Origin: Spongilla lacustris
Lineage: Eukaryota > Porifera > Demospongiae > Spongillida > Spongillidae
Direction of reading: 5' to 3'
DNA: 64,000 bases
Assembly (NCBI GenBank): GCA_949361645.1
Contig: OX442426.1
Coordinates: forward strand, 3,096,673-3,160,672
Every line of letters begins with the position of its first letter. Position 1 is the stretch's first letter. Positions 19,482 through 63,529 of this stretch are shown piece after piece. The translations under genes and the position numbers were made by a program. The notes under the pieces are model-generated. The model was not told the DNA's origin. It ran no database searches and saw only the letters and a program-made list of their open reading frames with translations.

Positions 19482-19546
19482 CAGTAAGCCGTGCTGTATG
19501 ATTTTAGTACTACTCGGTATAATCTCACTATTACTTCGCTGAAACA

Positions 19547-19990
19547 ATGTCTGGAAACAATTACGCCTTGCGCAGCGTCTCTAGTGGACAGTACCTAGAT
19601 GGCAGGGATCCTGGTATGTCGGAACCTCTACTTAGCAATGGAACAAGAGATCCACACACCGATAAGTATTTGCAGTTCACGATCTCTTCCGTCGGCTGTT
19701 CGTTGCACTCAATTCGCAGTGTGTCCAGTGGGCAATTTCTTGATGGTCGTGATAAAGGGATGTCCGATCCGTTACTCAATGGAACTCAAAATGCTACAAC
19801 TAATAAATACTTGCAGTGGCGCATTACTCCTGCTGGCCACCATCATTTTTCTATTCGCAGCCATTCAAGTGAGCAGTATTTGGATGGAAGGGACGCTGGC
19901 TTGGAAAATCCCCTTCTAAGCAGCGGGTCAAGGGACCCGAAAACGGATCCTTACTTACAGTGGATTCTCGTCCCACTACACTTCTGCTAA
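19547..19990 (+). CDS. Three-repeat beta-trefoil-like protein, 147 aa, intronless
   Basis: The protein consists of three repeats of about 48 residues. Each has R-S-x-S-S-x-Q-(Y/F)-L-D-G-R-D (residues 9-21, 57-69 and 104-116), then PLL, then YLQ(F/W) (41-44, 88-91, 136-139). Threefold symmetry at this length with a Q-x-W-like ending (LQW) is typical of beta-trefoil folds such as ricin-B-type lectins and actin-binding trefoils. Ligand and function are unknown. There is no signal peptide or membrane segment, so it is probably cytosolic. The start (ACAATGTC) lies 66 bp downstream of a TATA box and the stop is at 19988-19990. The frame is intact although transposons lie on both sides. I do not recognise a named gene. 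Confidence 0.75.
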   Translation: MSGNNYALRSVSSGQYLDGRDPGMSEPLLSNGTRDPHTDKYLQFTISSVGCSLHSIRSVSSGQFLDGRDKGMSDPLLNGTQNATTNKYLQWRITPAGHHHFSIRSHSSEQYLDGRDAGLENPLLSSGSRDPKTDPYLQWILVPLHFC

Positions 19991-21599: not shown

Positions 21600-22912
21600 G
21601 TGTACTGTGCAATTCTTAAATTTTTTACACGCCATATAATCACGAGTTTCAACCGATTAATCTTTCGCCGAATCTATGATGTACTAATGATAAAAAAGCC
21701 ACATTGTCGGTGATAGTAGCTATCTATTTGTTTTGAGTTCTATCATCGTCAATGATGTTTGTGTTACTAGTATCCATTACCATAGATAGTTTATTTAGCT
21801 GTGCAAAGTAATTCAGGCTCTTTGTAATGTATGCTAGTATGATTGCTATCACAATGACATGACCATAACACTTTCTTTCAGTGCAATCATGATGGACTCT
21901 GCAATTGCGCATGCAGACGACAGCAAAGTTAATCTCTAAGGTCAGCTTGTAAAAGTCTTTGTATGTATGTGCGACCATTACGGTTGTACAAGTACTGAAG
22001 AACAGGAGCTTGTAGTAAGTACAACAGCCTTAACGCGGGTCTAGATCTACCCCGACCTTATGTTGATCGCTCAAAACATAGACTAGACTGTGAGTGGCGC
22101 AAAAATTATCCATTCCTCGTTCGTTATTCATTTGTAGTGCGCACGTGATAATGTTTCTAGAAAACGCACATCCATCATTGCATGCTATTATATTCCAAAC
22201 GCATGCTCCCAATAGCTCGATCACGAGGTAAGGTTCTTACTAAGCGGTCGGATTGGTTTATTTGCGTTCCGATTTCTCCTCTTCCGTTACCTTTCTTAGA
22301 TGCTGCGTATCCTTTGTTCACTGCCCAGACCGATACTTTTCGTATGCAGTGACCTGGACTAAAATACGCATCTGGCCGGCAAAAAACTGTGGTCATCGCA
22401 AGCATCGTTTAATATAGTGAGTAGTAAGTATTCGACTTCCACTTGATGACGATGCATGGGCGATGATTGATATCGTAGAAAACGTATAGGTGGTTTTGGT
22501 GTGTGGTGTCGGCGAAACGGTGCACGATATGATGTGTTGTCGGCTACGTGTTATTAATTTATAGGGTAGAATACATATTGGTGCATATGCATATGAGTAC
22601 ATTACAATACATGGTATTGGCATAGTTGCTACCCTTGAATTCCTTTAAGATTCAGCAATGGCACCATAAAATTATTAAAATGAGATGTACATGTAACAGT
22701 TCTGTAACAAATTTTGACCAATCAAGTTGATAAATACACACAATGAAATGTTTATATGTTGAGCCATGTCCCTCATAACATGAAGTATGGTTGTTTTTAT
22801 AATGATTTCTTTGTGTGAAGGTACAGCAAATTACTAAATATTTGTATTTTAATTTATTTTTTGTACTCTCAGTAATGGTCGCGTTTGTCTTAAGCAAATC
22901 AATTAAATTTTG
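21600..22912. other. Intergenic stretch before the snoRNA locus
   Basis: No gene, RNA or complete repeat recognised. Short reading frames here have no family resemblance. Confidence 0.4.
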
Positions 22913-23067
22913 TTGCCATGGCATTGATGGTATCTTCACCACCATGTTCTCTGTATGGATGGTGTTCTTTTTACAATGCCACAACAGACCTAGTCCATCC
23001 TCCAGCATAGTTGGTCTCTGGTGAGGGTATCCTACCTCCTCTGACCTGGAGTATGGGTGGCACAAAC
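22913..23067 (+). ncRNA. H/ACA-box snoRNA-like gene, copy 1
   Basis: A 155-nt unit with the two-hairpin H/ACA layout. The 5' hairpin lower stem is GGCATTG (22920-22926) with CAATGCC (22974-22980). Its upper stem is CACCACCAT (22937-22945) with ATGGATGGTG (22955-22964, one bulged A). Between them is an internal loop with ATGGTATCTT on one side and TTCTTTTTA on the other, a candidate pseudouridylation pocket. The H box ACAACA (consensus ANANNA) follows at once at 22981-22986, 16 nt below the upper stem as in known guides. The 3' hairpin has CCAT/ATGG and CTCCAG/CTGGAG, then GGT/ACC and AGG/CCT around the loop. ACA is at 23062-23064, three nt before the end of conservation. The family role, guiding rRNA or snRNA pseudouridylation with dyskerin, is inferred. 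The target is not known. Confidence 0.75.
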
Positions 23068-23314
23068 AGATATTTAGCATATGAAGAAAATGTTCAACAT
23101 ATAAAAAGTACCTATTTTTGAATGTGTGAAGGTAACTAGACGAGGAAAATACGATCTTTTGTATCAATTGCTATGTAATTAACGAGCCTTAGAAGTCATG
23201 TGACCTATTTCTTTTTCAAGCTTATATAGCCAAGTGGCATAGACAGATATGTGCAATTAGATTTTAATAAAGATGTAAGGCTGCTGAGATGCTCCATTTG
23301 AAAGTAAAAGTTAA

Positions 23315-23993
23315 AGTCCGCGACACCATCGAGGAAGTAAACGTTTATGGCTTCTTAATGAATAACATTAAATTCATGCCCACAATACCGCTATGTTGTA
23401 AAACCTATCAGCTATTAACAGTATCAAAACGGACACCTTGTGCCGCGCAAAACCTTGTCAATATTTTCAAGTATATTGGGGGTACTTTTATTTTTTAATT
23501 CCAATTTGAGTATTATTTAGTACCGCATCCAAAAACCAAAATCATATTTTGATTCTACGTGTAATTGTACCTCTAATTGCAAAAAATCTCGTATATTACT
23601 TACATACTATCGGTTTGGTTTTCAAGAACAGAATCTTAACGTTTTTGCCTCATTACTGGCGCCATCTTTAGACACCTCATACCTTGTGTCAACAAAAACA
23701 ACTCGCTAAAGTAACAGTGAACCAGTTTGCTCAGCGTTTCATTGTACATCCTCCGCATCCATGAGCCGTTCCTTTGTACCTTCATTCATGAATTTAATTA
23801 CTAGCCACACGTGCTTAGCGTTAACGATCGTGAATAATTATGCCGTCGTTATTATTCAACTCACTGAATTTTTTGGTTAAACGAATTGGGGTACTGAAAA
23901 TAATGTATCGCGCCCATTATTCGGACCCCAAACACACCAAAAATGTAAAAAAAATGGCATGTTAATTTTACTTCCTCGATGCTGTCGCGGACT
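23315..23993. mobile_element. TTAA-flanked MITE with a paralogous empty site
   Basis: The termini are AGTCCGCGACACCATCGAGG and a reverse complement differing at one base. TTAA is present on both sides (23311-23314 and 23994-23997). The duplicated segment at about 27077-27100 reads AAGTAAAAGTTAATACATAA without the element, i.e. one TTAA only. This defines the insertion exactly and shows it came after the segmental duplication. No coding capacity. Confidence 0.85.
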
Positions 23994-24085
23994 TTAATAC
24001 ATAAATTTGGCCAACTATCATGTTCTCCACTGTTGACACAAGACAAGAGCCATTTGATTTATTGGTCTACTTTTCATGTTAGCAG

Positions 24086-24176
24086 TCTCTATGTCAAGAA
24101 TGGGCTGTACTCAGCACTTCACTTGCTGCCATTCTGTGCAGCACAGCGCATCCAAATCCTGCCCCTCATGTCTCTG
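24086..24176 (+). other. Exon-like segment alpha, copy 1 (snoRNA host)
   Basis: Bounded by an acceptor (CATGTTAGCAG) and a donor (CTG|GTAAGC); snoRNA copy 2 starts 62 nt downstream in the intron. Related segments are at 27176-27267, 30455-30540 and 32198-32309. Lengths of 91, 92, 86 and 112 nt argue against a conserved reading frame. Confidence 0.5.
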
Positions 24177-24238
24177 GTAAGCAAGTATGCATACATGTAC
24201 ATGTACATGTACATATAGATAAAACATTGTAAGAATTG

Positions 24239-24393
24239 TTACCATGGCATTGATGGTATCTTCACCACCATGTTCTCTGTATGGATGGTGTTCTTTTTAC
24301 AATGCCACAACAGACCTAGTCCATTCTCCAGCATAGTTGGTCTCTGGTGAGGGTATCCTACCTCCTCTGACCTGGAGTATGGGTGGCACAAAT
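24239..24393 (+). ncRNA. H/ACA-box snoRNA-like gene, copy 2
   Basis: Same 155-nt length and architecture as the copy at 22913. It differs at nt 3 (5' tail, G to A) and at nt 87 (C to T between the two lower helices of the 3' hairpin), both unpaired in the fold. ACA is at 24388-24390. Confidence 0.75.
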
Positions 24394-24607
24394 ACATTGT
24401 CCACTGTTTACCTTACCTGGTTCAATGTACATGTACATGTAATCTCTGCTGCAGTAACACTGTAAACTGATAAGTTGACCCTCCACTGTTATGTTTTTTT
24501 TTTTTTCTTCACCACTCTTTCATGAGTTCACTTAATATTGCCTCAGGGATAAAATAAGGTTTCATTTCAATTCCATTTACACCTGGTAACGTGTTTGTCT
24601 CTTTCAG

Positions 24608-24688
24608 TGTATCTGTGTTTGTGGGCGGATCTGCCATGAATATATTGTACCTCCTTACCCTTGAGCTGCTCATTCCCTTGATAAGCAG
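24608..24688 (+). other. Exon-like segment gamma, copy 1 (snoRNA host)
   Basis: An 81-nt segment between a good acceptor (GTCTCTTTCAG) and donor (AGCAG|GTATGTG). An open frame (SVSVFVGGSAMNILYLLTLE) exists but matches no family I know. The second copy at 27669-27749 is also 81 nt. A further open segment follows the acceptor GGTTTTGTTTTCAG at about 24843. Confidence 0.45.
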
Positions 24689-25124
24689 GTATGTGTACGT
24701 GTACAAAGGAACTTCCCTTAAAAATGATGATTTGCTTGAATGTTTAGCATTAATAGTACTTATACAGTCTAACAAAATGGTCATTTGGACACATGTTTGT
24801 CAACAAATTTATAACGACACCTATCTCTTGGTTTTGTTTTCAGTTTCCAGTTAGAGCAAATTGACTTAGTCCCCAAACCTCACAAATCATTTAATCATTT
24901 CTATATTGGTCAAAATGTGGGTTTCCCTGTGAGCAAGCCAAACCAGGGGTATTTGACCTACAGTTGGACTCCTTGCTTTGATTTTGTTGGAACCTCATTT
25001 TATTTTTTTCTTCCTGATATTTAAGTAACTCTGCTTAAATTTTTTTTTTTTAATGGCGAAATACACCCTTGCATAGTTATATTGATGCTCTTTTTATGTA
25101 CAACCAAATCATAATATGTTACAG

Positions 25125-25297
25125 GTTAAATGGTTAAAATGGTTGTTTAACCCTTTAACCACTAACAAAAACACATTATACAATTATATCATCACCAACA
25201 GCCGGAAGCTAAATACGTGTGTGGACTTATTCCCTCCATTGGTGGGAAACTGTAATGTCACTGACACCTGCACTGCCATCCCCGTGAAACTCAACAG
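25125..25297 (+). other. Exon-like segment beta, copy 1 (snoRNA host)
   Basis: From an acceptor ending ATGTTACAG to a donor CAACAG|GTATGTG; snoRNA copy 3 begins 46 nt later. The paralogue at 28207-28389 is 183 nt instead of 173 nt, a frame-changing difference. Confidence 0.45.
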
Positions 25298-25343
25298 GTA
25301 TGTGTACATGTATATGTAGGTGCTACATTTTATAATTACCATG

Positions 25344-25498
25344 TTGCCATGGCATTGATGGTATCTTCACCGCCATGTTCTCTGTATGGATGGTGTTCTT
25401 TTTACAATGCCACAACAGACCTAGTCCATCCTCCAGCATAGTTGGTCTCTGATGAGGGTATCCTACCTCCTCTGACCTGGAGTATGGGTGGCACAAAT
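25344..25498 (+). ncRNA. H/ACA-box snoRNA-like gene, copy 3
   Basis: 155 nt. One change is A to G at nt 29 in the upper stem of the 5' hairpin, turning an A-U pair into a G-U pair so the helix is kept. The other is G to A in the apical part of the 3' hairpin (GGTG to GATG). ACA is at 25493-25495. Confidence 0.75.
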
Positions 25499-26690
25499 AG
25501 ATATTTAACATCGCTGATATGTCCACTAATACGATGTCATCAACCACACCTGTTGAACTTATCCTTTGATTAGTTATGTCTGCTGATCACTACAGTGGGA
25601 ATACAATGTAGTGATAGTTGGACGAAATAAGATTGATGTTTACTTGAATTTAAAACAATAACCACATGTAATATTGAAAATCTAACTGCACAGATGCATG
25701 GGCTATACAATTGTCATCAAGCAGACAAAAACATGGTGTATCTTGTGACTATCATGTTCTACAACTTTCGTTTTCATTGACCCCGGTCTTATCAACTACG
25801 TTTTCCTATATATATCTTCACTCAGGGTTAACAGATCAGGATCTGTAATATAAACTAAAGGCAACACATTGAAATGTATATGTTTAGTTAATGATTTTAA
25901 TTCTTCAATGAATAATCAGTTGATAATATGTAAAGACCATTCTGTACAGCACATATTGCATGTCTATTTATTAACAGAGCTTAACTATAGCCAGGGTTTG
26001 TCAGATAATTGCCTAGTTTTGCTTTTCACCTCTCTTTTGAGTTTTGGATGAGAATGACTTTGTTGGATGTATAGTACTGTCCATACAGAAGTTCACACGA
26101 GTGACTTGCACTTACTAGATCAAGTTGAAGTACTAAAATGACTTGCATACCTTAACTCGAGCGAGTGGGATGCACTTTTCAGTAGACCTAGAAAATAGAT
26201 TTCTGATGTGGTTCTACTGTTTACATACATGTAAGTTGCATGTAGATGTAGGTATATAAATAATAATAACTAGCCCACACCATGATAAATAAAACATCTT
26301 CCACACGTGTACTTTCAGTGACGATTACCTTTTACAGCAACAATATATTATGCTACAAATCAATTGTTGAGTGTTTCAATACACTTATTACTTTCACTCA
26401 CTTATTCCCCCCTATACTCGTGCAAGTGTGAACTTGTTAGTGGACAGCTCTGCAGCTTGATTGGGTAGGATAAGGTTTCTTACAACTTGTAACATGTTTG
26501 CCTTCATTGTCAAATTTCATAAATTGTACCTTCCCTATACACAATGAGATGGAAGAGCCATTTGATTTATTGGTCTGTGTTTCTGGTTTACAGGCACATC
26601 CTCATCGTACCCAACATTCATTTGATAAGCAGGTATGTGCACATGTACATGTATATGTATATGTAGGTGCTACATTTTATAATTACCATG
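25499..26690. other. Spacer between duplicated snoRNA units
   Basis: Mostly AT-rich sequence without recognisable genes. Near its end a 39-nt segment at 26594-26632, between an acceptor (GGTTTACAG) and a donor (AGCAG|GTATGTG), precedes snoRNA copy 4. Confidence 0.4.
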
Positions 26691-26845
26691 TTGCCATGGC
26701 ATTGATGGTATCTTCACCACCATGTTCTCTGTATGGATGGTGTTCTTTTTACAATGCCACAACAGACCTAGTCCATCCTCCAGCATAGTTGGTCTCTGGT
26801 GAGGGTATCCTACCTCCTCTGACCTGGAGTATGGGTGGCACAAAC
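26691..26845 (+). ncRNA. H/ACA-box snoRNA-like gene, copy 4
   Basis: 155 nt and, by eye, identical to the copy at 22913 including the terminal ACAAAC. The following 250 bp also match the sequence downstream of copy 1, so copies 1 and 4 head equivalent units of a tandem duplication. Confidence 0.75.
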
Positions 26846-27175
26846 AGATATTTAGCATATGAAGAAAATGTTCAACATATAAAAAGTACCTATTTTTGAA
26901 TGTGTGATGGTAACTAGACGAGGAAAATACGATCTTTTGTATCAATTAGTATGTAATTAACGAGCCTTAGAAGTCATGTGACCTATTTCTTTTTCAGCTT
27001 ATATAGCCAAGTGGTATAGATATGTGCAATTAGATTTTAATAAAGATGTAAGGCTACTGAGATGCTCCATTCGAAAGTAAAAGTTAATACATAAATTTGG
27101 CCAACTATCATGTTCTAGACTGTTGACACAAGACAAGAGCCATTTGATTTATTGGTCTACTTTTCATGTTTGCAG

Positions 27176-27267
27176 TCTCTATGTCAAGCATGGGCTGTAC
27201 GGCACTTCACCTGCTGCCATTCTGTGCAGCACAGCACATCCAAATCCTGCTGCCCCTCATATCTTTG
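27176..27267 (+). other. Exon-like segment alpha, copy 2 (snoRNA host)
   Basis: Acceptor CATGTTTGCAG and donor TTTG|GTAAGC; paralogue of 24086-24176 with frame-changing indels. snoRNA copy 5 begins 41 nt downstream. Confidence 0.5.
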
Positions 27268-27307
27268 GTAAGCAAATGTACATCTAGATATTACGTTGTA
27301 AGAATTG

Positions 27308-27462
27308 TTGCCATGGCATTGATGGTATCTTCACCACCATGTTCTCTGTATGGATGGTGTTCTTTTTACAATGCCACAACAGACCTAGTCCATCCTCCAG
27401 CATAGTTGGTCTCTGGTGAGGGTATCCTACCTCCTCTGACCTGGAGTATGGGTGGCACAAAT
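27308..27462 (+). ncRNA. H/ACA-box snoRNA-like gene, copy 5
   Basis: 155 nt, same core sequence and fold as copy 1 apart from the last base (ACAAAT). ACA is at 27457-27459. It is in the unit equivalent to that of copy 2. Confidence 0.75.
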
Positions 27463-27668
27463 AGATTGTCCACCTGTTTACCTTCCCTGGTTAAATTAGT
27501 TACAATATATATGTACATGTAATCTCTGCTGCAGTAACACTGTAAACTGATAAGTTGAACCTCCACTGTTATGTTTTTTTTTTTTTCTTCACCACTCTTT
27601 CATGAGTTCATTTAATAAGGTTTCAATTCAATTCCATTTACACCTTGTAACGTGTTTGTCTCTTTCAG

Positions 27669-27749
27669 TGTATCTGTGTTTATGGGCGGATCTACCATGA
27701 ATATATTGTACCTCCCTACCCTGGAGCTCCTCATTCCCTTGATAAGCAG
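27669..27749 (+). other. Exon-like segment gamma, copy 2 (snoRNA host)
   Basis: 81 nt, with the same splice signals as 24608-24688 (TCTCTTTCAG / AGCAG|GTATGTG) and a few substitutions. Confidence 0.45.
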
Positions 27750-28206
27750 GTATGTGTACGTGTACAAAAGAACGTCCCTTAAAAATGATAATTTGCTTGA
27801 GTGTTTAGCATTAATAGTACTTATACAGTCTAACAAAATGGTCATTTGGACACAACAAATTTATAACGACACCTATCTCTTGGTTTTGTTTTCAGTTTCC
27901 AGTTAGAGCAAATTGACTTAGTCCCCAAACCTCACAAATCATTTAATCATTTCTATATTGGTCAAAATGTGGGTTTCCCTGTGAGCAAGCCAAACCAGGG
28001 GTATTTGACCTACAGTTGGACTCCTTGCTTTGATTTTGTTGGAACCTCATTTTATTTTTCTGTCCTGATATGTAACTCTGCTAAAAAAAAATTTAAAAAA
28101 TGGTTTACGAACTCTGCTTAAATTTTTTTTTTTAATGGCGAAATACACCCTTGCATAGTTATATTGATGCTCTTTTTATGTACAACCAAATCATAATATG
28201 TTACAG

Positions 28207-28389
28207 GTTAAATGGTTAAAATGGTTGTTTAACCCTTTAACCACTAACAAAAACACATTATACAATTATATCATTAACAACAGCTGGAAGCTAAGTACGT
28301 GGGTGGACTTATTCCTCCATTGGTGGGAAACTGTGTAATGTCACTGACACTTGCACTGCCATCCCCGTGGAACTCATCATACCCAACAG
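28207..28389 (+). other. Exon-like segment beta, copy 2 (snoRNA host)
   Basis: Paralogue of 25125-25297, with insertions near 28350-28385 and a one-base loss, so the frame is not kept. The donor CAACAG|GTATGTG precedes snoRNA copy 6. Confidence 0.45.
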
Positions 28390-28435
28390 GTATGTGTACA
28401 TGTATATGTAGGTGCTACATTTTATAATTACCATG

Positions 28436-28590
28436 TTGCCATGGCATTGATGGTATCTTCACCACCATGTTCTCTGTATGGATGGTGTTCTTTTTACAAT
28501 GCCACAACAGACCTAGTCCATCCTCCAGCATAGTTGGTCTCTGGTGAGGGTATCCTACCTCCTCTGACCTGGAGTATGGATGGCACAAAT
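28436..28590 (+). ncRNA. H/ACA-box snoRNA-like gene, copy 6
   Basis: 155 nt. The one internal change, G to A at nt 145 (ATGGATGGC), lies between the CCAT/ATGG helix and the ACA box and is unpaired in the fold. ACA is at 28585-28587. Confidence 0.75.
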
Positions 28591-29573
28591 ACTGATACGC
28601 CCAATGATACATTTACCTCACCTACATTGTATTTAGCTTTAGTTGCCACTGCTGGCACATACATGTAGATGCATTCATCCACATGTACATGTACGTGCTG
28701 TTCAACTAGGCAATTAGTTTTGAAGACAACTGGATTGAGTCAGTTTAGGTTTCACAATAGTAGGGTACTTTTGTTGCCGGGGAAAAATGAAATAAAAACT
28801 AAACAGAAGTGTAAACAAGCACATAAATTCAAAGATTGATAAAATGCAAGTAGCTGAGCATTTTGTGTTAAAAGTGGCTAAGAGAAGTAGCGTTTAGAAA
28901 TGTACTATTAACTTTGTCTTGTAGGGATAGGAGTAAGTTTCATGTGATTAGATGATTGAGATAACTAAACTTGACTTACATGATGCTTAGGGCTGCCAAC
29001 TCCTTGATCGAGTGGCTTTCTAAGGGGCATGAGGCTGAAGGAAGAATTAATATTGGTTGTATCAATGATGAGTGAGAAGTATAACTTTCATTCCTAGAAT
29101 TGTTTTATAACTAAATAAAATTACGCCATTAATGTGACACCTGGCAAGTTATTTGCAGTCAAATGTCGCGCTTTGAGTGTGCAGTGGAGAACATGATAGT
29201 TTGCCAAATAATTTTTCAAATTTCAAATGGAGTATCTATCTCAGTAGCCTTACATCTTTATTAAAATCTAAATGCCTATATACATGTAAAATGAAATAGG
29301 TCACATGACTTCTAATACTCGTAGTTTTCGCCTGGTTCTGAAAAGAACCATTTCCATCAACACAGGCAACACCCTCAGCCAATCGAATAACCAGAAATAA
29401 CCGACCAATGCAGTGTTTTAAAATTATGGTCATAGTATAATTAATCAAAATTATTTGAAATGGCAACACTACCAAGCCACTGATGTTATATTTTAAGATC
29501 ATGTTTTGTATGGTTTTGTATCACAATAAGCTCATAATGTAGTCATATGATTACCTGCAATTCCTGCAAGGTA
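28591..29573. other. Spacer with an inverted copy of host flanking sequence
   Basis: No gene recognised. At about 29190-29320 there is an inverted, diverged copy of the segment at 23190-23300 (TTACATCTTTATTAAAATCT; AATAGGTCACATGACTTCTA), so the duplication history includes an inversion. Confidence 0.45.
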
Positions 29574-29904
29574 TCAAAAGTGCATGGGAAATGTCGATCC
29601 TAGCACTTTAGACCCTAAAACGGCGCTTTTCTGTGAATAACGGCACAATTCTGGCAAGCCATTGCTGTAGGATGGGGCATCTGTATCAATAACATTGAAG
29701 TCAACGTACTTCCAAATCCAGCCTCGATCCTGAGTCACCAACTTGTGTTTCTGCCGCTCTAACAATTGGATCTCTGACAACCTGTGCGGCAATATCTCCA
29801 ATGCAATCTCTGATCTCATTATGTCTCTGGATAACTAGGCCACCAACCTTACAGTCAAGAGCAAAGGCAGCTAGATTATGACCCTTCCTAAGTGTTGAAA
29901 ACAT
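29574..29904 (-). pseudogene. LINE family 2 C-terminal remnant
   Basis: Fragments read ALDCKVGGLVIQRHNEIRDC and IGDIAAQV in one frame, and RGWIWKYVDFNVIDTDAPSY in another. They match the better-preserved copy at 60919-61652 (ALDCKKGGLVILRYNEIRDC and FDVRVIDTDAPSH). This is the zinc-knuckle plus restriction-like endonuclease end of a second LINE family. Frameshifted and short. Confidence 0.65.
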
Positions 29905-30454
29905 TTTCCCCTGCCGTTTAACATAAAATGTTCAACATATAAAAAGTACCTATTTTTCAATATGCGAAGGTAACTAAAATATGATCTGTTTAAAAAGTAT
30001 CAATTCATTCAACTACTATAGGAACACAGCTGAGTTCAAAATTGCAGATAAACAAAACAAACGAGCTTCCTTTTTCGCTTTCAAAGGACAATTCCAGTCA
30101 CAATTTTCATCGCATTATTAGATCATCATTTTTTTGGTACACGTGTACATTAAATGTTCAAGTACCTAGTAAGGCTGAAAGGTTGCTTACGTACATGTAG
30201 GTCCTTTAGTTACAAACCCAGTTTCCTTGAGATCCAAACTCGACAAGCAAATTTGTTTTGGAGAGGGGTCATAATCTACGAGCCTTAGAAGTCATGTGAC
30301 CTATTTCTTTCTCAAGCTTATTAGCCGAGTGGTATAGGCACAGATATGTGCAATTAGATTTTAATAAAGATGTAAGGCTACTCGAAAGTAAAAGTTCATT
30401 AAAAAAAATATTTGTCTACCATTTGATTTGTTGGCCTACTTTTCATGTTTGCAG

Positions 30455-30540
30455 TCTCTATGTTGTACTCATCAAAGACACTTCACCTACTGCCATTCTG
30501 TGGAGCACAGCATATCCAAATCCTGCCCCTCATGTCTTTG
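30455..30540 (+). other. Exon-like segment alpha, copy 3 (snoRNA host)
   Basis: Acceptor CATGTTTGCAG and donor TTTG|GTAAGC, 86 nt, with snoRNA copy 7 starting 59 nt downstream. The preceding sequence (30280-30400) matches that before copies 1 and 2 of the segment. Confidence 0.5.
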
Positions 30541-30598
30541 GTAAGCAAGTACATGTATGCATAGATGTACATTACATGATATTTTATTATAAGAATTG

Positions 30599-30753
30599 TT
30601 GCCATGGCATTGATGGTATCTTCACCACCATGTTCTCTGTATGGATGGTGTTCTTTTTACAATGCCACAACAGACCTAGTCCATCCTCCAGCATAGTTGG
30701 TCTCTGGTGAGGGTATCCTACCTCCTCTGACCTGGAGTATGGGTGGCACAAAT
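30599..30753 (+). ncRNA. H/ACA-box snoRNA-like gene, copy 7
   Basis: 155 nt, matching copy 5 by eye over its whole length. The sequence after the ACAAAT end (agattgtgtaaaaacc) is unrelated to that after most other copies, which fixes the 3' boundary. ACA is at 30748-30750. Confidence 0.75.
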
Positions 30754-31272
30754 AGATTGTGTAAAAACCTCACAGGGGTGAGGGGGCAAGTAGGATGGCT
30801 ATGTATTTTTAGTCTGGGCTGACTTAATGATAAGAAGTAGCCTGTAGGATTGGATCCAGGAATCATGTAAGAAAGTGGAGTGGCAGTTGTTTTGAGCTTT
30901 ATTTGATATGAGCAAAATGTCGATGCCTAGTACATGTAACGCAGCATGTGAGTATACATGTACATGTATATCTATGTGATATAATGAACAAAATGGGGGT
31001 GGCCTATCCCATTGAGGCCTAGAGAAATTTTTACCCAAACCATCTAAAACAAAGAATGCAACAATTTTAAAAGTGCAGATAGTTAGTTAAGAAAAAGTAA
31101 AGCATTTCAATGAGATCTGCTGGATGTAACTCTCATATATAAGATTGGCTGTCATGTTTCTTCAGTCTGCAGTAGCACACAAATCTATAGAGTTATATGC
31201 TCTGCAGCAATGATGACATCTGTAATGTAATGTACATGTAACATATTCAGTACAAGCTGTCTAAGATATTAA

Positions 31273-31975
31273 TGTTTAATCTCCCGCAATCCTTATTTAA
31301 GAATGCCAATCCTTAAATAAGGATGATGACCACTTACTAAAGAATGTTGCACACTAGTTGCTTTATTTTAGATTAGTGATTAACTAGATTCAAGATCATG
31401 CAGATCAGTGTTACTGCCACAGGTTTGGCTTACTTTTTAAAAAACAGTATTATGGTCTCAATACAGCGAAACTTCCATTTGCCATTAGCGATATACATGT
31501 AGTAGTGAGCAAATTATATAGAACTAGAAAGCACACTGTTCGATGGAGCCGCGGCAGAACAACCACATGTACGTCCATGCTGGCGTTTGAGCAGAAGCGA
31601 GCATCTACATCAGTACACGTCATTATACAAATGCATATTCCAAACTTGATATGAAGTGTTATGATGTAAGAATGCATAACCTATTAACCACAAGTTATTT
31701 CTTCAATGAATCAAGGTTGTGAGTATAGCTGGAGCGAATAACTATCAGAGAAATCAAGAGTTTTAATACCATTATGGTGTCAATTCTTACATAAGGATAT
31801 GCCAGTGCCTCCCTGTTCTAACACATAGACATTGATCATATTGACATCATTTAAAGTTTGTTGAGGAGGCTTTTTTATCTACATGCAATTTGTTTGGATG
31901 GCAAAAACATGCAATGTTAAAGACTATCCTGATAATGACATTCGTAAATAAGGTATTTTCCCTGGAGATTAAACA
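31273..31975. mobile_element. Non-autonomous piggyBac MITE, 703 bp
   Basis: It begins TGTTTAATCTCCCGCAATCC and ends GGAGATTAAACA, with TTAA at 31269-31272 and 31976-31979. The termini equal those of the piggyBac element at 1-2526. No coding sequence recognised inside. Confidence 0.8.
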
Positions 31976-32197
31976 TTAAAGTGTGTAAGTTAGTCTACAT
32001 GTACATTGAATTTTAATTGTCTCTAGATATGGAGCAGAAATACAAGGATTGGTGTATGAGTACTTGCTAGTTGTATTTCTATTTGTACTTTTGTCCTGAA
32101 TATTGGGTGTTGCCTCAGTGTCAAATCCTTTTCACACCTTGCATCATGAAGACAAATATCACCCCTTGAGTTGATCAAATACTCCTCTTCGTTTCAG

Positions 32198-32309
32198 CAC
32201 ATCCACCATGAATGGGCTGGACCACTCCACCTACTCCCATCTCTGTGAGGACATCTGCCAGGTGTGTGGAGCACAGCACATCCAAATCCTGCTGCCCCTC
32301 ATGTCTTTG
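32198..32309 (+). other. Exon-like segment alpha, copy 4 (snoRNA host)
   Basis: Acceptor CTTCGTTTCAG and donor TTTG|GTAAGC. The 3' part matches the other alpha segments, while the 5' part is different. One frame is open through it (HSTYSHLCEDICQVCGAQHI) but I recognise no family. Confidence 0.45.
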
Positions 32310-32356
32310 GTAAGCAAATGTACATCTACACTGTAGATATTACGTTGTAAGAATTG

Positions 32357-32511
32357 TTGCCATGGCATTGATGGTATCTTCACCACCATGTTCTCTGTAT
32401 GGATGGTGTTCTTTTTACAATGCCACAACAGACCTAGTCCATCCTCCAGCATAGTTGGTCTCTGGTGAGGGTATCCTACCTCCTCTGACCTGGAGTATGG
32501 GTGGCACAAAT
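32357..32511 (+). ncRNA. H/ACA-box snoRNA-like gene, copy 8
   Basis: 155 nt, matching copy 5 by eye, 47 nt downstream of the host donor site. ACA is at 32506-32508. This is the last copy in the window. Confidence 0.75.
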
Positions 32512-32901
32512 AGATATTTTACACCAATCTATTGATGTCATCGCCCACACCTGTTTAACGTACAGTGCCATTCACCCACAAGTTCACACGTGCACGCGAG
32601 TGCAATTTGTGAGCACAGGGTCTTCTACATGAGTGCTGTCACTCAAATACAGATTTACGGTATAGCTACATGTACAGATGATTACGTTAGTTTCAAGCTA
32701 TTGATTGTAAATGTTTTTGGACCAGCTGTTTTGCTTTGAGTTAAGGCAATTGAGTCATTGTAGCACTCAATCAAGCCACGTGTGGGTGGATGGCACTATA
32801 CCCTTTGATTAGTTCTGATGGCTGAACAGTATACTGCATGCGAACTCATGCATGTCTCGCACATTGAAATAATTGTGCGCAAGCTGAGCAAAAAAAAAAT
32901 C

Positions 32902-35229: not shown

Positions 35230-38113
35230 ATGCTGGACCTAATATGCAGGGTAAGCTACTTCTTCGCGGGTAATGTTAAACATGTAGAAGAGTTTGTGCG
35301 CGAAGCTAAATTTGCCGCACAGCAGCCACCTGCATGCCATTGCTTGCTAACATCCCATAGTAAGCTTATTGCTGTTGAGCTGAGTGCGATCCGTATGCAT
35401 GTCCATTTGCGATCCGCAGTAGACGTGGCTAAGAATTGCACGGGTACGAGTTGGGGGGGGGGGGGGGGGAGTGTAGTTTCTCGTGTGTCAGGGGCAACAC
35501 GATGATCGATTTATCACCTTTCGCTCGGGGGGAGGAGGGTTACACTGAATCGTGTAATGGAAATGATACTTGTCGTCACTCGTGCAGGCTTTGCTGGTGC
35601 TTCTGTCAGCTGCTCAAGTCATGTGCCAGGCGCCGGCAGACACTAACTGCAAAGTTGATTCCAAAATTCCAAACATATTGACACTGATGGATTCGAATGG
35701 TTACAACAATCTGCTTGGAGAGGTTTGGACAGCTACTAATGGCGACAGCAGCAGTACAACGGTATGTTAGATGATGTACCTCAAAATTATTGTTAATTCT
35801 TAATATTTTAATAGTGGGCGCCGGGGACTGGTGGTAACTGCCAGAGGACTTTGCAAGTGTGCGAGGCGAGGACTATGTTTTTTAAGGCCAACAACTGGCT
35901 CTTCACACAATACATTCCAAGACCACAACTGGAGTACGATATAACAATTTACATCAATGTTACACTGCGAATGACGACCTCGTGTTCGTCACAACCCATG
36001 GCCAACTGCCCAAGGTTCTTACTTGTGTACAATTACATTTCTAATCAGCAACAAGATGTCAGTGTGTATACAAATTCTTCAAAGTACACGCTGCTAGGGA
36101 ACATCACAAGCAGTAGCTCAAATTCTCCTCCCATTACCACCACTCTCAACTTCACACTAAAAGCTGGTGACAGTGGTTTATATCTGGGCTTTAGGGACCA
36201 GGGCAGTTGCACAATGCTGAACAGAGTATATGTATACAACTACCAGTGCCCCCAAAAACAAATTGGACTTGTGGATTTACCTTTGACAGCTGCTCCTATT
36301 GTGAAGAACTCTCCAATGGCCATTCTTGCGTCGTGTGTGGCAGGAGGCATCAACACAACATCCCTCAGCCTTCAGTGCAGCAGTGGTGGAGTCTGGAGCG
36401 GAAGCTCCACTTGCATTTGCAGAGCAGCGGACGGTTACAGAAACGTTGCAAATAGGTGTGAAGGCTGTGGTGCTGGATTGTGGCTGGACTCCACCAGCAT
36501 CACATGTAGTGCTTGTCCTGCCAACACTATGAGCAGCATGCCTGTAACATCTGTGTGCCCCTGCAATCAAGGGTTTTTTAGAGCATTCGACAACCTCCCA
36601 AGTGACAACTGTGCTGGTGAGTCTGAATGTGGTACCAATGATAGCAGCATGCTGTTTTATTGGTAGTACTTTATTCACCCTCCTACAGCTCCACCTCATG
36701 CTGCCAGCAACGTTCAGGTCACTCAAATCACTGTTGACTCCATAACTGTTCAGTGGGACTACATTCCTGACCTCAGTGAGAGATCGGACTACTACTTTGC
36801 ACTGCAGTACAAAGATGGAGATATGACACAGTACATCAAGGCTGCAAATATCACAGCTTTGACATACACAATTCATAATCTTAGTCCCTACACTATTTAC
36901 GAGATGCAACTTATCACTAGTAACGGAGTTAGTGATCAGGACACAGCAAATGTATTTTTTAGGACAGTGACATTTTCATGCAAAACTGCCGAAGGAGGTA
37001 ACCTGTTAGTGTGTATTCCTAGTAACGATAAACATTTCATCTCGTTCTTGCTCATATTTTAGTTCCTGGCATAATAGATGACATCACTATCAGTAGTCGA
37101 AATGTAATATGGCAGCCACCTGCACAGTCTGGTGGTGATATCACTGGGTACGAACTTCTGGTGCTTAGGGGCTCACAAATGACAAACAAAAGTGTGGAAG
37201 GAAATTTTTATTATGTGCGGGATGCTGATATACCGAATGGAAATGGAACCATTTTTGTTCAAGTAAGCCCTGTTGCATTTAATAAATACTAAAGGAAAAT
37301 AGCAGTGTGACACTAATTTTTTTTTCATAATTTGTAGGTGCGTGCAATAAATCTTGCTGGCTCTGGTGAGTGGAGTGCAAAGCACATTCTTGGGAGCTGT
37401 AAGTTACATGTACATGTATATCAGAAAGGATAAATTCATACCCCTCGTTTTTAGCCTGTATTGAGGCCCCACCTGTGACTCTACCAAGCCATCTAGCACT
37501 CCAATCATCAGAGTCATGTGTCATGTGGCCTATACCAGAAGGGGAGGTTACCCAGTACAATATCCTGTACAACAATACAATCATAACACTGAACTACACC
37601 ACAAACTGGCATTGCTTTGTATTGAACCAAATTCAAGACACAATCACCGTGCAGGTATGTGCGTCCAGCCTTAATGATCAGCCTCCATTGCATGACTCAC
37701 TAGTGGGCAAGGATTTGTTACTACAAAATTCCATGCAAGGACTTGCTTGACATGCAACTCCATTGATCTGTGTTGTATTTTTGCCTACTCCCCATTGCAG
37801 GTCAGAGCAGTCAATTCTGCAGGAACTGGACCTTATTCGTCAGTGGACCTAAAAGTAAAGAATGGATTGCTTAATTTTAATCAATCGCTTTAACTATATT
37901 TTTTGTACTTAGAACGTACTATTTCATTGTCAAAAGCCCCATGTATCCAGCAAACGAACCAGTGAGCCAACTCTAGCATCCCCACATGCAGGTAGGTGTC
38001 AGCTAGGTGATACTCATGATGCATAATTATCGTGTTATCTACTATTTGGAATGTTATTCCTTGCCCTCCACAGTACGCATTTACAATTTTTCACTTTTAC
38101 CATTGCAGGATGA
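35230..38113 (+). CDS. Eph-receptor-like ectodomain protein without membrane span or kinase
   Basis: In-frame exons are 35230-35250, 35588-35761, 35815-36616, 36689-36997, 37063-37262, 37338-37398, 37455-37654, 37801-37854, 37913-37991 and 38109-38113. All introns are GT-AG and the product is 634 codons. Residues 1-20 form a signal peptide (MLDLICRALLVLLSAAQVMC). Residues 25-205 are an ephrin-binding domain: RTLQVCEARTMFFKANNWLF matches the VCN...NNWL core and LYLGFRDQGSCTMLNRVYVY the domain end. Residues 205-332 are a cysteine-rich GCC2/EGF-like region (CEGCGAGLWLD, CSACPANTMSS). Three fibronectin III domains follow (about 333-435, 436-522, 523-607). The last joined exon meets TGA after a short polar tail. 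No hydrophobic span or tyrosine kinase is found before the next gene at 38375. It may be a secreted Eph-like protein or a truncated receptor; the exon structure after 37854 is less certain. Confidence 0.8.
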
Positions 38114-38374
38114 TGTGAACTGTGGGACAGCTTATGTATTGTGCATCTATATGTTTTGTAGCAAATCTACTGTATATGTGCTTATTGTTCATGTATTTGA
38201 AAAGTATTACATGGTTTTTGTTTTAAATTGATCATTATATATTTCGAGGCTTGGGTCAACAGTACAGTAAAGTCTTTGCACTGGGTTTATAAGAAACATA
38301 CTTTTGTACATTGAGCAGTGTCAAACATTCATATAAAACATACAATCATATTTTAATAATTAAATTTATTGGCT

Positions 38375-48992
<10,618 letters not shown>

Positions 48993-61754: not shown

Positions 61755-63354
61755 CTAGGACCTAGACAACATCGCCCTAGAGTTTGCCCTCACCAGGGAG
61801 ATGTTTAGCCGTGCATAAAGTTCAAAGGTTGCCATGGACTTTGGCACACAGCCATGGACAGCAAGGCGAGATGCCAGGTTAGAAAAAGATTGCTGAGCCT
61901 CCTTGCCCCATGCCCCATAAGACTCCACCACAAGAGGGATGGACACCCACCCCAACTCTGCACACTTTGCATCATTGGCAGTGTGCTTCCTAAGCTCAGC
62001 CGCCTCTGATGCTGCACCTGCTCTTGCTCCCGCTGCAGACAAAACATTGGAGTTTAGCGGTGAGACAACAGAGATGTCAAAGGCGGCTGGCTTTCCTCGA
62101 TCCCAGTCCTGTACAAGAATATCTGCTGGTCTTGACTGGGAGAGATCTGTGCTGAGCCCTGCACCTGCTTCAACCTGGACAGACAAATGTGCAGTATGGA
62201 AGGATTCTGCCAAAATATCCCGAAGATTGTTATGGCGAAATATAGCATCACCCCCTCTTTTGCAAGTAGTTGCATGGTGGCTTAGGGGGTCAAGAGAACT
62301 ACCAGGGCATAGTGCACACTGGGACCCATACGAGATATCTAAGCCCAACCACCACTTTACTGCAGTATGGAACTCCTCTGGATCAAGATGGAAGCCTAGC
62401 CCTATGGCAGGTGCTACAGAAAGCCATGATGCAGCATGCTTGGCTGAAACTGAATATAGACGTGCTTTATCAGCAGGTGAGGATTTTTCCATAAGTTGCT
62501 GGAATTGAAAGCTATCCAGTTTCAAAGATAAACCTTTCTGACTGCAAGGTACAGACGTGATGGAGCTAAGAGATATCTTCTCAGTTAATGCAACTTGCTC
62601 ATTGAACATATCAATAGCACGATTCAAATGTGCATCCTCATTATTACACCATCCAGATGAAGAATAGGAAGCAATGAATGCTGCACTGGCATGATGGGAG
62701 AGGGAGCGAAGTCCCAAACCCCCAAAATGTAGAGGGAGCTGTGCTTGACAACATGAAGCATCAGTTATGGTGACTGCCATACAGTTAAGGAAACACTGGC
62801 GCACATCAACATCAAACATATGCAGAGCATCAAAGGCTAATGGAGTTGGAATAGCTCGAGCCAAGTGATTGAACCGACAAAAACTACCACACATACGGAT
62901 GAGTGTTAGGGCTACTTGTGGGTCCCTACTTGCAATATCTTCAAGTTTGGATAATAACTTCTTAGCTTCATGGCACTTGGACGCAATGAAATTGGCACAA
63001 AAGAGATAGTCTCCAATGGGGACACCTAGTATATCAAAATGTGGCATGTTTGATATCCTTAATTCTGAGGGGAATGTAGTGGCATTACTTTTGCAGAAAA
63101 GTTCACATTTTGTAATGTTCACATGAAGCCCAAGCTTGGGGCCCATTTCTTGTATTAGCATCAGTGCACGAAGCACAGATGATTTCTTACCTGCCAAGAC
63201 CCCATCGTCTAAATACCATGCCTGAAATAAGATATTGAGACAGCCGGTATCTGCATCGATGGATTGCACAATTCTGTGCAAAACTAGAGCAAAAAACAAG
63301 GGACCCAAGGGGTCTCCCTGCTGCACACCTAATTCAGAGGTCAGACAGCCCAAT
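61755..63354 (-). mobile_element. LINE family 1 fragment D, longest intact frame (533 codons)
   Basis: An uninterrupted frame from SELGVQQGDPLGPLFFALVL to the stop at 61755. RT motif YLDDG lies about 40 residues after QQGDP, and a helix-rich thumb/linker region follows (CGSFCRFNHLARAIPTPLAF, HFGGLGLRSLSHHASAAF). Next is a CCHC knuckle near 62310 (CALCPGSSLDPLSHHATTC), then the endonuclease-like segment RPADILVQDWDRGKPAAFD near 62130-62090. The C-terminus is ELYARLNISLVRANSRAML. The N-terminal half (cysteine clusters, zinc fingers, first RT blocks) is absent. The lack of stops suggests a young, 5'-truncated insertion. A non-coding AT-rich spacer with ATT runs follows at 61660-61750. Confidence 0.8.
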
Positions 63355-63529
63355 GTTATAATAAGATACACAATACAACACAAGGATTATTTCATACACA
63401 GGTACACTTTTATATAAATGTAGAGCTACAATGTATAACAGGCTACATTGTTATTCTTATGACTAATATACTATATACATATATAGAGTAACTAAACCAA
63501 ATTGCATGCTCTGCTTAGGAGAGCTCTGG

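Follow-up and report, generated by a model that had tools for sequence, protein, structure and literature searches.

In animals, box H/ACA small nucleolar RNAs (snoRNAs) are usually released from introns by splicing, trimmed, protected by the proteins dyskerin, NOP10, NHP2 and GAR1, and direct pseudouridylation. GAS5 and UHG are non-coding snoRNA hosts with drifting exons and conserved intronic RNAs, the latter being different snoRNAs and largely of the box C/D type. Local multiplication of a single snoRNA is described in two reports: in the Drosophila gene mfl, the isoforms DmSnR60 a-d arose through local duplication and lie one per intron (PMC1821038), and in Suberites sponges a box H/ACA snoRNA has been duplicated in cis into neighboring RPL13A introns, the two copies being 94% alike in S. 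domuncula (PMC3412847). Here we analyzed a 64-kb stretch of the genome of the sponge Spongilla lacustris (contig OX442426.1, positions 3,096,673 to 3,160,672 of the forward strand; hereafter the window), in which a short block occurs eight times within 10 kb. On the sequence evidence, we consider it likely that the eight copies are box H/ACA snoRNA genes, each lying within an intron of a single host gene that has several exons and is probably non-coding.

This reading is drawn from the anatomy of the block, from the donor-like sites upstream of it and from exon-like repeats in which no reading frame is maintained. Amplification of an intronic H/ACA guide would explain the boxes, their spacing, the shared block ends, the intronic setting and the contrast between the block and its flanks. 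An earlier note on this DNA had proposed a locally amplified intronic H/ACA snoRNA; the identity, setting and amplification find support in the sequence analyses below, and no site of the target form that it gave for the 5' pocket turned up in the 1736 bases searched.

The repeated block and its predicted fold

The copies lie on the plus strand and start exactly where the earlier note had placed them, at 22913, 24239, 25344, 26691, 27308, 28436, 30599 and 32357. The 155-nt unit described there is a real repeat, the block with constant ends being 158 nt long, with constancy beginning two bases further upstream (22911 in copy 1). The constant run closes with ACA and two further bases on the 3' side; position 155 varies between C and T, position 156 is constant and the similarity then falls, so that the earlier placing of the drop, three nucleotides after the ACA, is accurate to about one base. 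All copies contain this constant region with the same two ends, the 3' one just after the ACA:

22911..23068, plus strand: putative H/ACA-type snoRNA, copy 1; preceding 200 nt free of donor-like sites that reach the threshold
24237..24394, plus strand: putative H/ACA-type snoRNA, copy 2; core substitutions at 3 and 87; donor-like GTAAGC at 24177
25342..25499, plus strand: putative H/ACA-type snoRNA, copy 3; core altered at 29 and 109 (the change at 109 breaks a pair); donor-like GTATGT at 25298
26689..26846, plus strand: putative H/ACA-type snoRNA, copy 4; core as in copy 1; donor-like GTATGT at 26633
27306..27463, plus strand: putative H/ACA-type snoRNA, copy 5; donor-like GTAAGC at 27268
28434..28591, plus strand: putative H/ACA-type snoRNA, copy 6; core altered at 145; donor-like GTATGT at 28390
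30597..30754, plus strand: putative H/ACA-type snoRNA, copy 7; donor-like GTAAGC at 30541
32355..32512, plus strand: putative H/ACA-type snoRNA, copy 8; donor-like GTAAGC at 32310 and another donor-like site at 32262

Across the 28 copy pairs, 151-155 of the 155 core positions match and four pairs are identical; relative to copy 1, the eight copies show five internal substitutions in addition to the C/T variation at position 155. BLAST comparisons among the copies within the window gave E-values of 2.6e-78 to 4.7e-75, and the repeats are thus not due to chance. A covariance model built from the copies found exactly these eight in the window at E-values up to 1. A DNA search of the entire 248.6-Mb assembly, whose counts are lower bounds, returned at least eight matches, namely these eight, all on the plus strand in the same 10-kb stretch. 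With the block found at this locus alone in that search, we rejected a dispersed transposon or short interspersed element; a dispersed transposon was among the findings that, according to the earlier note, would overturn its proposal. Exact pieces of the core had no matches in the collections viral_contigs and genome_contigs, which consist of viral, bacterial and archaeal sequence and are hence little informative.

Another such finding was that the block is part of a spliced exon. None of the eight copies has AG directly before the block or GT directly after it, and all eight contain stops in all three plus-strand frames, so that the block does not look like a protein-coding exon. One minus-strand frame is open in seven of the copies, as chance can give in a 158-nt block.

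In the predicted 5' hairpin, a 7-bp stem (GGCAUUG/CAAUGCC) closes directly on an ACAACA H box, as had been reported, and is identical in all eight copies; its seven pairs have probabilities of 0.99-1.00. The minimum-energy fold of this hairpin has lower and upper stems of 10 bp each. The two-sided pocket and the 16-nt distance from the upper stem to the H box were likewise recovered (measured on copy 1, the bases being the same in all). This distance falls within the 14-16 nt of the H/ACA criterion, and ACAACA agrees with the H-box consensus ANANNA. The two boxes of copy 1 are located as follows:

22981..22986, plus strand: H box ACAACA, copy 1; unchanged in 8/8 copies
23062..23064, plus strand: ACA box, copy 1; unchanged in 8/8 copies

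The rule for the 5' hairpin is passed by the real sequence and also by 9 of 400 dinucleotide shuffles, to which the ACA was supplied, and the earlier statement that spacing and box layout define H/ACA guides was therefore too strong. The bases of the H box have pairing probabilities of 0.00-0.37, and the ACA sits 2-4 nt before the end of conservation, the H/ACA expectation being three nucleotides before the RNA 3' end. A two-hairpin fold of the whole RNA, the lack of which would have spoken against the earlier note's proposal, exists at -46.2 kcal/mol. A canonical but suboptimal form of the 3' hairpin (-18.9 kcal/mol) would have a CCAUCC/GGGUGG stem one base before the ACA and an upper stem 15 nt away. 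Reading the pair assignments by eye from the predicted folds, we found C87U in copy 2 (C-G to U-G) and G145A in copy 6 (U-G to U-A) to retain pairing in the canonical 3' lower stem, and A29G in copy 3 to retain its pair in the 5' upper stem.

Probable intronic setting, putative host gene and proposed growth of the array

Donor-like GTAAG or GTATG motifs lie 40-62 nt upstream of the block in seven of the eight copies, at distances of 62 nt (copy 2), 46 nt (copies 3 and 6), 58 nt (copies 4 and 7), 40 nt (copy 5) and 47 nt (copy 8). Those of copies 5, 7 and 8 were read from the sequence and lie below our simple donor score, which for copy 8 lists another site, at 95 nt. Related exon-like pieces, with an acceptor AG and a donor GT, precede copies 2, 5, 7 and 8 and measure 91, 92, 86 and 112 nt, respectively. 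These and the other exon-like pieces are:

24086..24176, plus strand: exon-like repeat preceding copy 2; limits taken from the sequence itself
27176..27267, plus strand: exon-like repeat preceding copy 5
30455..30540, plus strand: exon-like repeat preceding copy 7
32198..32309, plus strand: exon-like repeat preceding copy 8; limits taken from the sequence itself
24608..24688, plus strand: second exon-like repeat, after copy 2 (81 nt); bounds read from the sequence
27669..27749, plus strand: second exon-like repeat, after copy 5 (81 nt); bounds read from the sequence
26594..26632, plus strand: short exon-like piece before copy 4

Because the pieces before copies 2, 5, 7 and 8 keep no common reading frame, we read the host as a probably non-coding gene on the plus strand whose multiple exons are predicted to be spliced. 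The piece before copy 8 matches at four places in the genome only, all of them within this locus. Its 34-aa frame was considered as a trace of a known protein and dropped: it had no match in solved structures and a single sub-threshold Pfam match, to ADD_DNMT3, at 14.8 bits against a cut-off of 26.

We propose that the host would be transcribed on the plus strand and that splicing would release the introns holding the block. Trimming of the intron ends would then stop at the RNA shielded by dyskerin, NOP10, NHP2 and GAR1 and leave a mature RNA of ~155 nt, whose pockets would position a ribosomal RNA (rRNA) uridine for conversion to pseudouridine. The array itself would have expanded as exon-intron units were duplicated in tandem and recombined, with the exon and intron sequence drifting while the RNA stayed constant.

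The flanks of the copies have drifted. The 300-nt upstream flanks gave no alignment in 14 of the 28 copy pairs and the 300-nt downstream flanks none in 23 of the 28. Copies 5 and 7 are identical at 155/155 core positions, whereas their upstream flanks are 71% identical over 290 nt; for copies 5 and 8, an equally identical core contrasts with an upstream flank of 88% over 100 nt. By their upstream flanks, the copies form the groups {2, 5, 7, 8} and {3, 4, 6}, with weaker cross-matches and with copy 1 apart. The downstream groups differ, joining copy 1 with 4 and copy 2 with 5, with short matches of copy 3 with 8 and 4 and of copy 2 with 7. Copy 4 combines the two patterns, resembling copies 3 and 6 upstream (48 nt, 92%) and copy 1 downstream (243 nt, 95%). 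Such a mosaic fits tandem duplication together with recombination within the cores.

A separate observation concerns a 207-nt stretch that is 100% identical in two units (24801-25007 and 27853-28059), the other parts of which differ by a few percent. We considered another RNA gene in this stretch and found no support for it, the fold over 163 nt inside the stretch having a z of -0.03.

Putative guide pockets and candidate targets

The putative guide strands of both pockets are unchanged in all eight copies. On copy 1, the candidate strands are:

22927..22936, plus strand: left strand of the 5'-hairpin pocket, AUGGUAUCUU; putative guide
22965..22973, plus strand: right strand of the 5'-hairpin pocket, UUCUUUUUA; putative guide
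23001..23012, plus strand: left strand of the 3'-hairpin pocket in the canonical fold, UCCAGCAUAGUU; putative guide for the 18S segment
23047..23054, plus strand: right strand of the 3'-hairpin pocket in the canonical fold, UGGAGUAU; putative guide

We searched for targets in 1736 bases, comprising the rRNA parts of a first ribosomal DNA (rDNA) piece, 200 bases of an 18S middle piece and the small nuclear RNAs (snRNAs) U1, U2, U4, U5 and U6. The searches made found no complete rDNA in the assembly. In the first piece, 5.8S is accompanied by the 3' end of 18S and the 5' end of 28S, and the further pieces were a second 5.8S-like piece, a partial 18S 3' match and the decayed 18S middle piece. The isolated first piece (G000:C2:3516000-3519700) lies in ordinary sequence, running from the 18S 3' end to the 28S 5' end and stopping abruptly, and the decayed 18S middle piece also lies in ordinary sequence (G000:C24, about 714000). 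U2 gave 28 matches, 26 of them above the cut-off, with widely differing scores and on contigs C1, C11, C17 and C18.

The 3' pocket would pair with CCCAACCA[UA]AACUAUGCCGA in the 18S middle piece, forming nine pairs and one mismatch on one side and three pairs on the other. The score of 28 was reached by 14 of 2000 shuffled guides and in 39 of 1000 random 5.4-kb targets, figures to be read with the knowledge that two pockets were tried and that the 18S middle piece was sought for this motif, so that selection is built in. The U of CCA-U-A-AACUAUGCC in 18S rRNA is thus a candidate target and a weak lead. The segment presumably lies near human U1112, and the site is not known to be on the human pseudouridine list. 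We dropped a supposed similarity between human U1 and the left strand of the 5' pocket, this genome's own U1 differing there.

A more specific proposal, that the cluster is a lineage-specific guide amplified to eight active copies for dosage, with the 3' pocket aimed at this uridine, appears doubtful to us. Were it true, the uridine would be a new rRNA modification site with an unusually large guide cluster; the 18S match, if real, predicts one testable pseudouridine.

Weighing the snoRNA reading

Several observations weigh against a guide RNA of the H/ACA class. The architecture test described above is of moderate strength, and the predicted fold is only moderately stable (z -1.91), its stability being equalled or exceeded by 7 of 200 shuffles. 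The overall minimum fold, at -51.0 kcal/mol, carries an added long-range closing stem. The minimum of the 3' hairpin (-24.4 kcal/mol) forms a CUCCAG/CUGGAG stem and has no pocket at the canonical distance, so that the canonical form costs 5.5 kcal/mol above it. The first A of the ACA is paired with a probability of 0.78, the constant 9-nt 5' tail preceding the first stem seems long, and G109A in copy 3 breaks one pair. In copy 1, none of the 200 nt scanned upstream forms a donor-like site that reaches the threshold. The 5' pocket had no target among the 1736 bases of snRNA and partial rRNA, neither of the form AAGAA-UN-AAGAU proposed by the earlier note nor otherwise, the best score of 16 being equalled by 1769 of 2000 shuffled guides. 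Finally, copies 3 and 6 look like a recent unit duplication, and their cores differ at 3/155 positions, with 94% of the flank matching over 302 nt; the same holds for copies 2 and 5, with a core differing at 2/155 positions against flanks of 92% and 86%. Because of these two pairs, the contrast between core and flank is strong mainly for the older pairs.

That no known family reached its cut-off belongs on the same side, and the best bit score, to an H/ACA family, on the other. At the gathering cut-offs, no Rfam family matched within the window. Searched permissively, copy 1 alone returned four matches, all far from their cut-offs. By bit score, SNORA8 (RF00393, H/ACA) ranked first, at 17.7 bits and E 0.47; its alignment spans the 5' hairpin through the H box, and the second hairpin aligns poorly. 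A minus-strand microRNA model had a slightly better E of 0.38, and the SNORA8 match is therefore near chance. Membership in SNORA8 was rejected, the gathering score of 38 bits not being reached, as were mir-4657 (17.4 of 73 bits), PYLIS_6 (14.7 of 80) and the C/D family sn1502 (13.6 of 60). The permissive search of the 11-kb locus returned three matches, all below cut-off and none inside a copy, and SNORA8 was absent from them. Across the whole genome, neither SNORA8 nor SNORA62 was detected at E-values up to 10 (only 45 and 38 candidates scored), although SNORA62 has been reported from Suberites sponges (PMC4515611). Given so few candidates scored and this reported family undetected, the silence of Rfam is poor evidence; its sensitivity may be low for this genome, which is indistinguishable here from a true absence of the families.

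The alternative that survives best is a variant of the snoRNA reading, in which gene conversion and duplication largely account for the likeness of the copies and only one or a few of them still function. We regard it as possible, though less likely than not. The different combinations of left and right flanks among the copies are what recombination within the core would give, and both the three core differences between copies 3 and 6 beside a 94% flank and the broken pair in copy 3 speak for it. Gene conversion alone, however, fails to explain why the block ends are the same in all copies, and the H box, the ACA and the guide strands are intact in each of the eight.

It is unlikely that the block is instead a conserved structured cis element, involved in splicing control or serving as an alternative exon, rather than a free RNA. 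Its position close behind donor-like sites and the long-range stem closing the whole-molecule fold would suit such a role, but the missing AG and GT and the plus-strand stops in all copies do not, and the H/ACA layout, passed by 9 of 400 shuffles, would have to be accidental. Less likely still is that the copies arose as retroposed snoRNAs (snoRTs) inserted into one intron after another, in place of exon-intron unit duplication: the block ends coincide with plausible RNA ends and snoRNA retroposition is on record (PMC4515611), but copies 2, 5, 7 and 8, and likewise copies 3, 4 and 6, have related upstream flanks that include the donor-like site, the copies were found only in this 10-kb stretch and all on the plus strand (in a lower-bound search), and none of the eight blocks is followed by a stretch of A.

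The surroundings of the array contain frames with protein domains and remains of transposons. Downstream, at 35815-39106 (plus strand), frames encode Ephrin receptor ligand-binding and fn3 domains, followed by a PI3K p85-binding domain. A 155-aa open frame at 19523-19987 (plus strand) has a ricin-type beta-trefoil lectin-like domain, with three similar repeats discernible by eye. Frames of a DDE_Tnp_1_7 transposase and a reverse transcriptase, at 346-1374 and 61758-63386 (both minus strand), represent transposon remains.

Intronic amplification of an H/ACA snoRNA remains our favored explanation of the locus. The cluster was revealed by its conservation against drifting flanks inside one genome, and automatic annotation would probably miss it, Rfam being silent at its cut-offs in the window. 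If the copies are expressed, they show how far the cis-duplication of an H/ACA RNA can go in an animal, and the natural marks in copies 2, 3 and 6 could tell which of them are used.

In its drifting exon-like pieces and conserved, probably intronic RNAs, the locus resembles GAS5 and UHG; unlike in those hosts, one RNA is repeated here. Like DmSnR60 a-d, it would hold locally duplicated versions of a single snoRNA in separate introns, whereas the Drosophila RNAs (PMC1821038) are of box C/D type, number four and reside in a pseudouridine synthase gene. The case in Suberites RPL13A (PMC3412847) is an intronic H/ACA RNA duplicated within one gene, as proposed here; it comprises two copies in a ribosomal-protein gene, in contrast to the eight copies, 97-100% alike, in a probably non-coding host in Spongilla. 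The novelty in relation to these published parallels is one of degree, eight copies at 97-100% identity, and the kind of gene is already well known.

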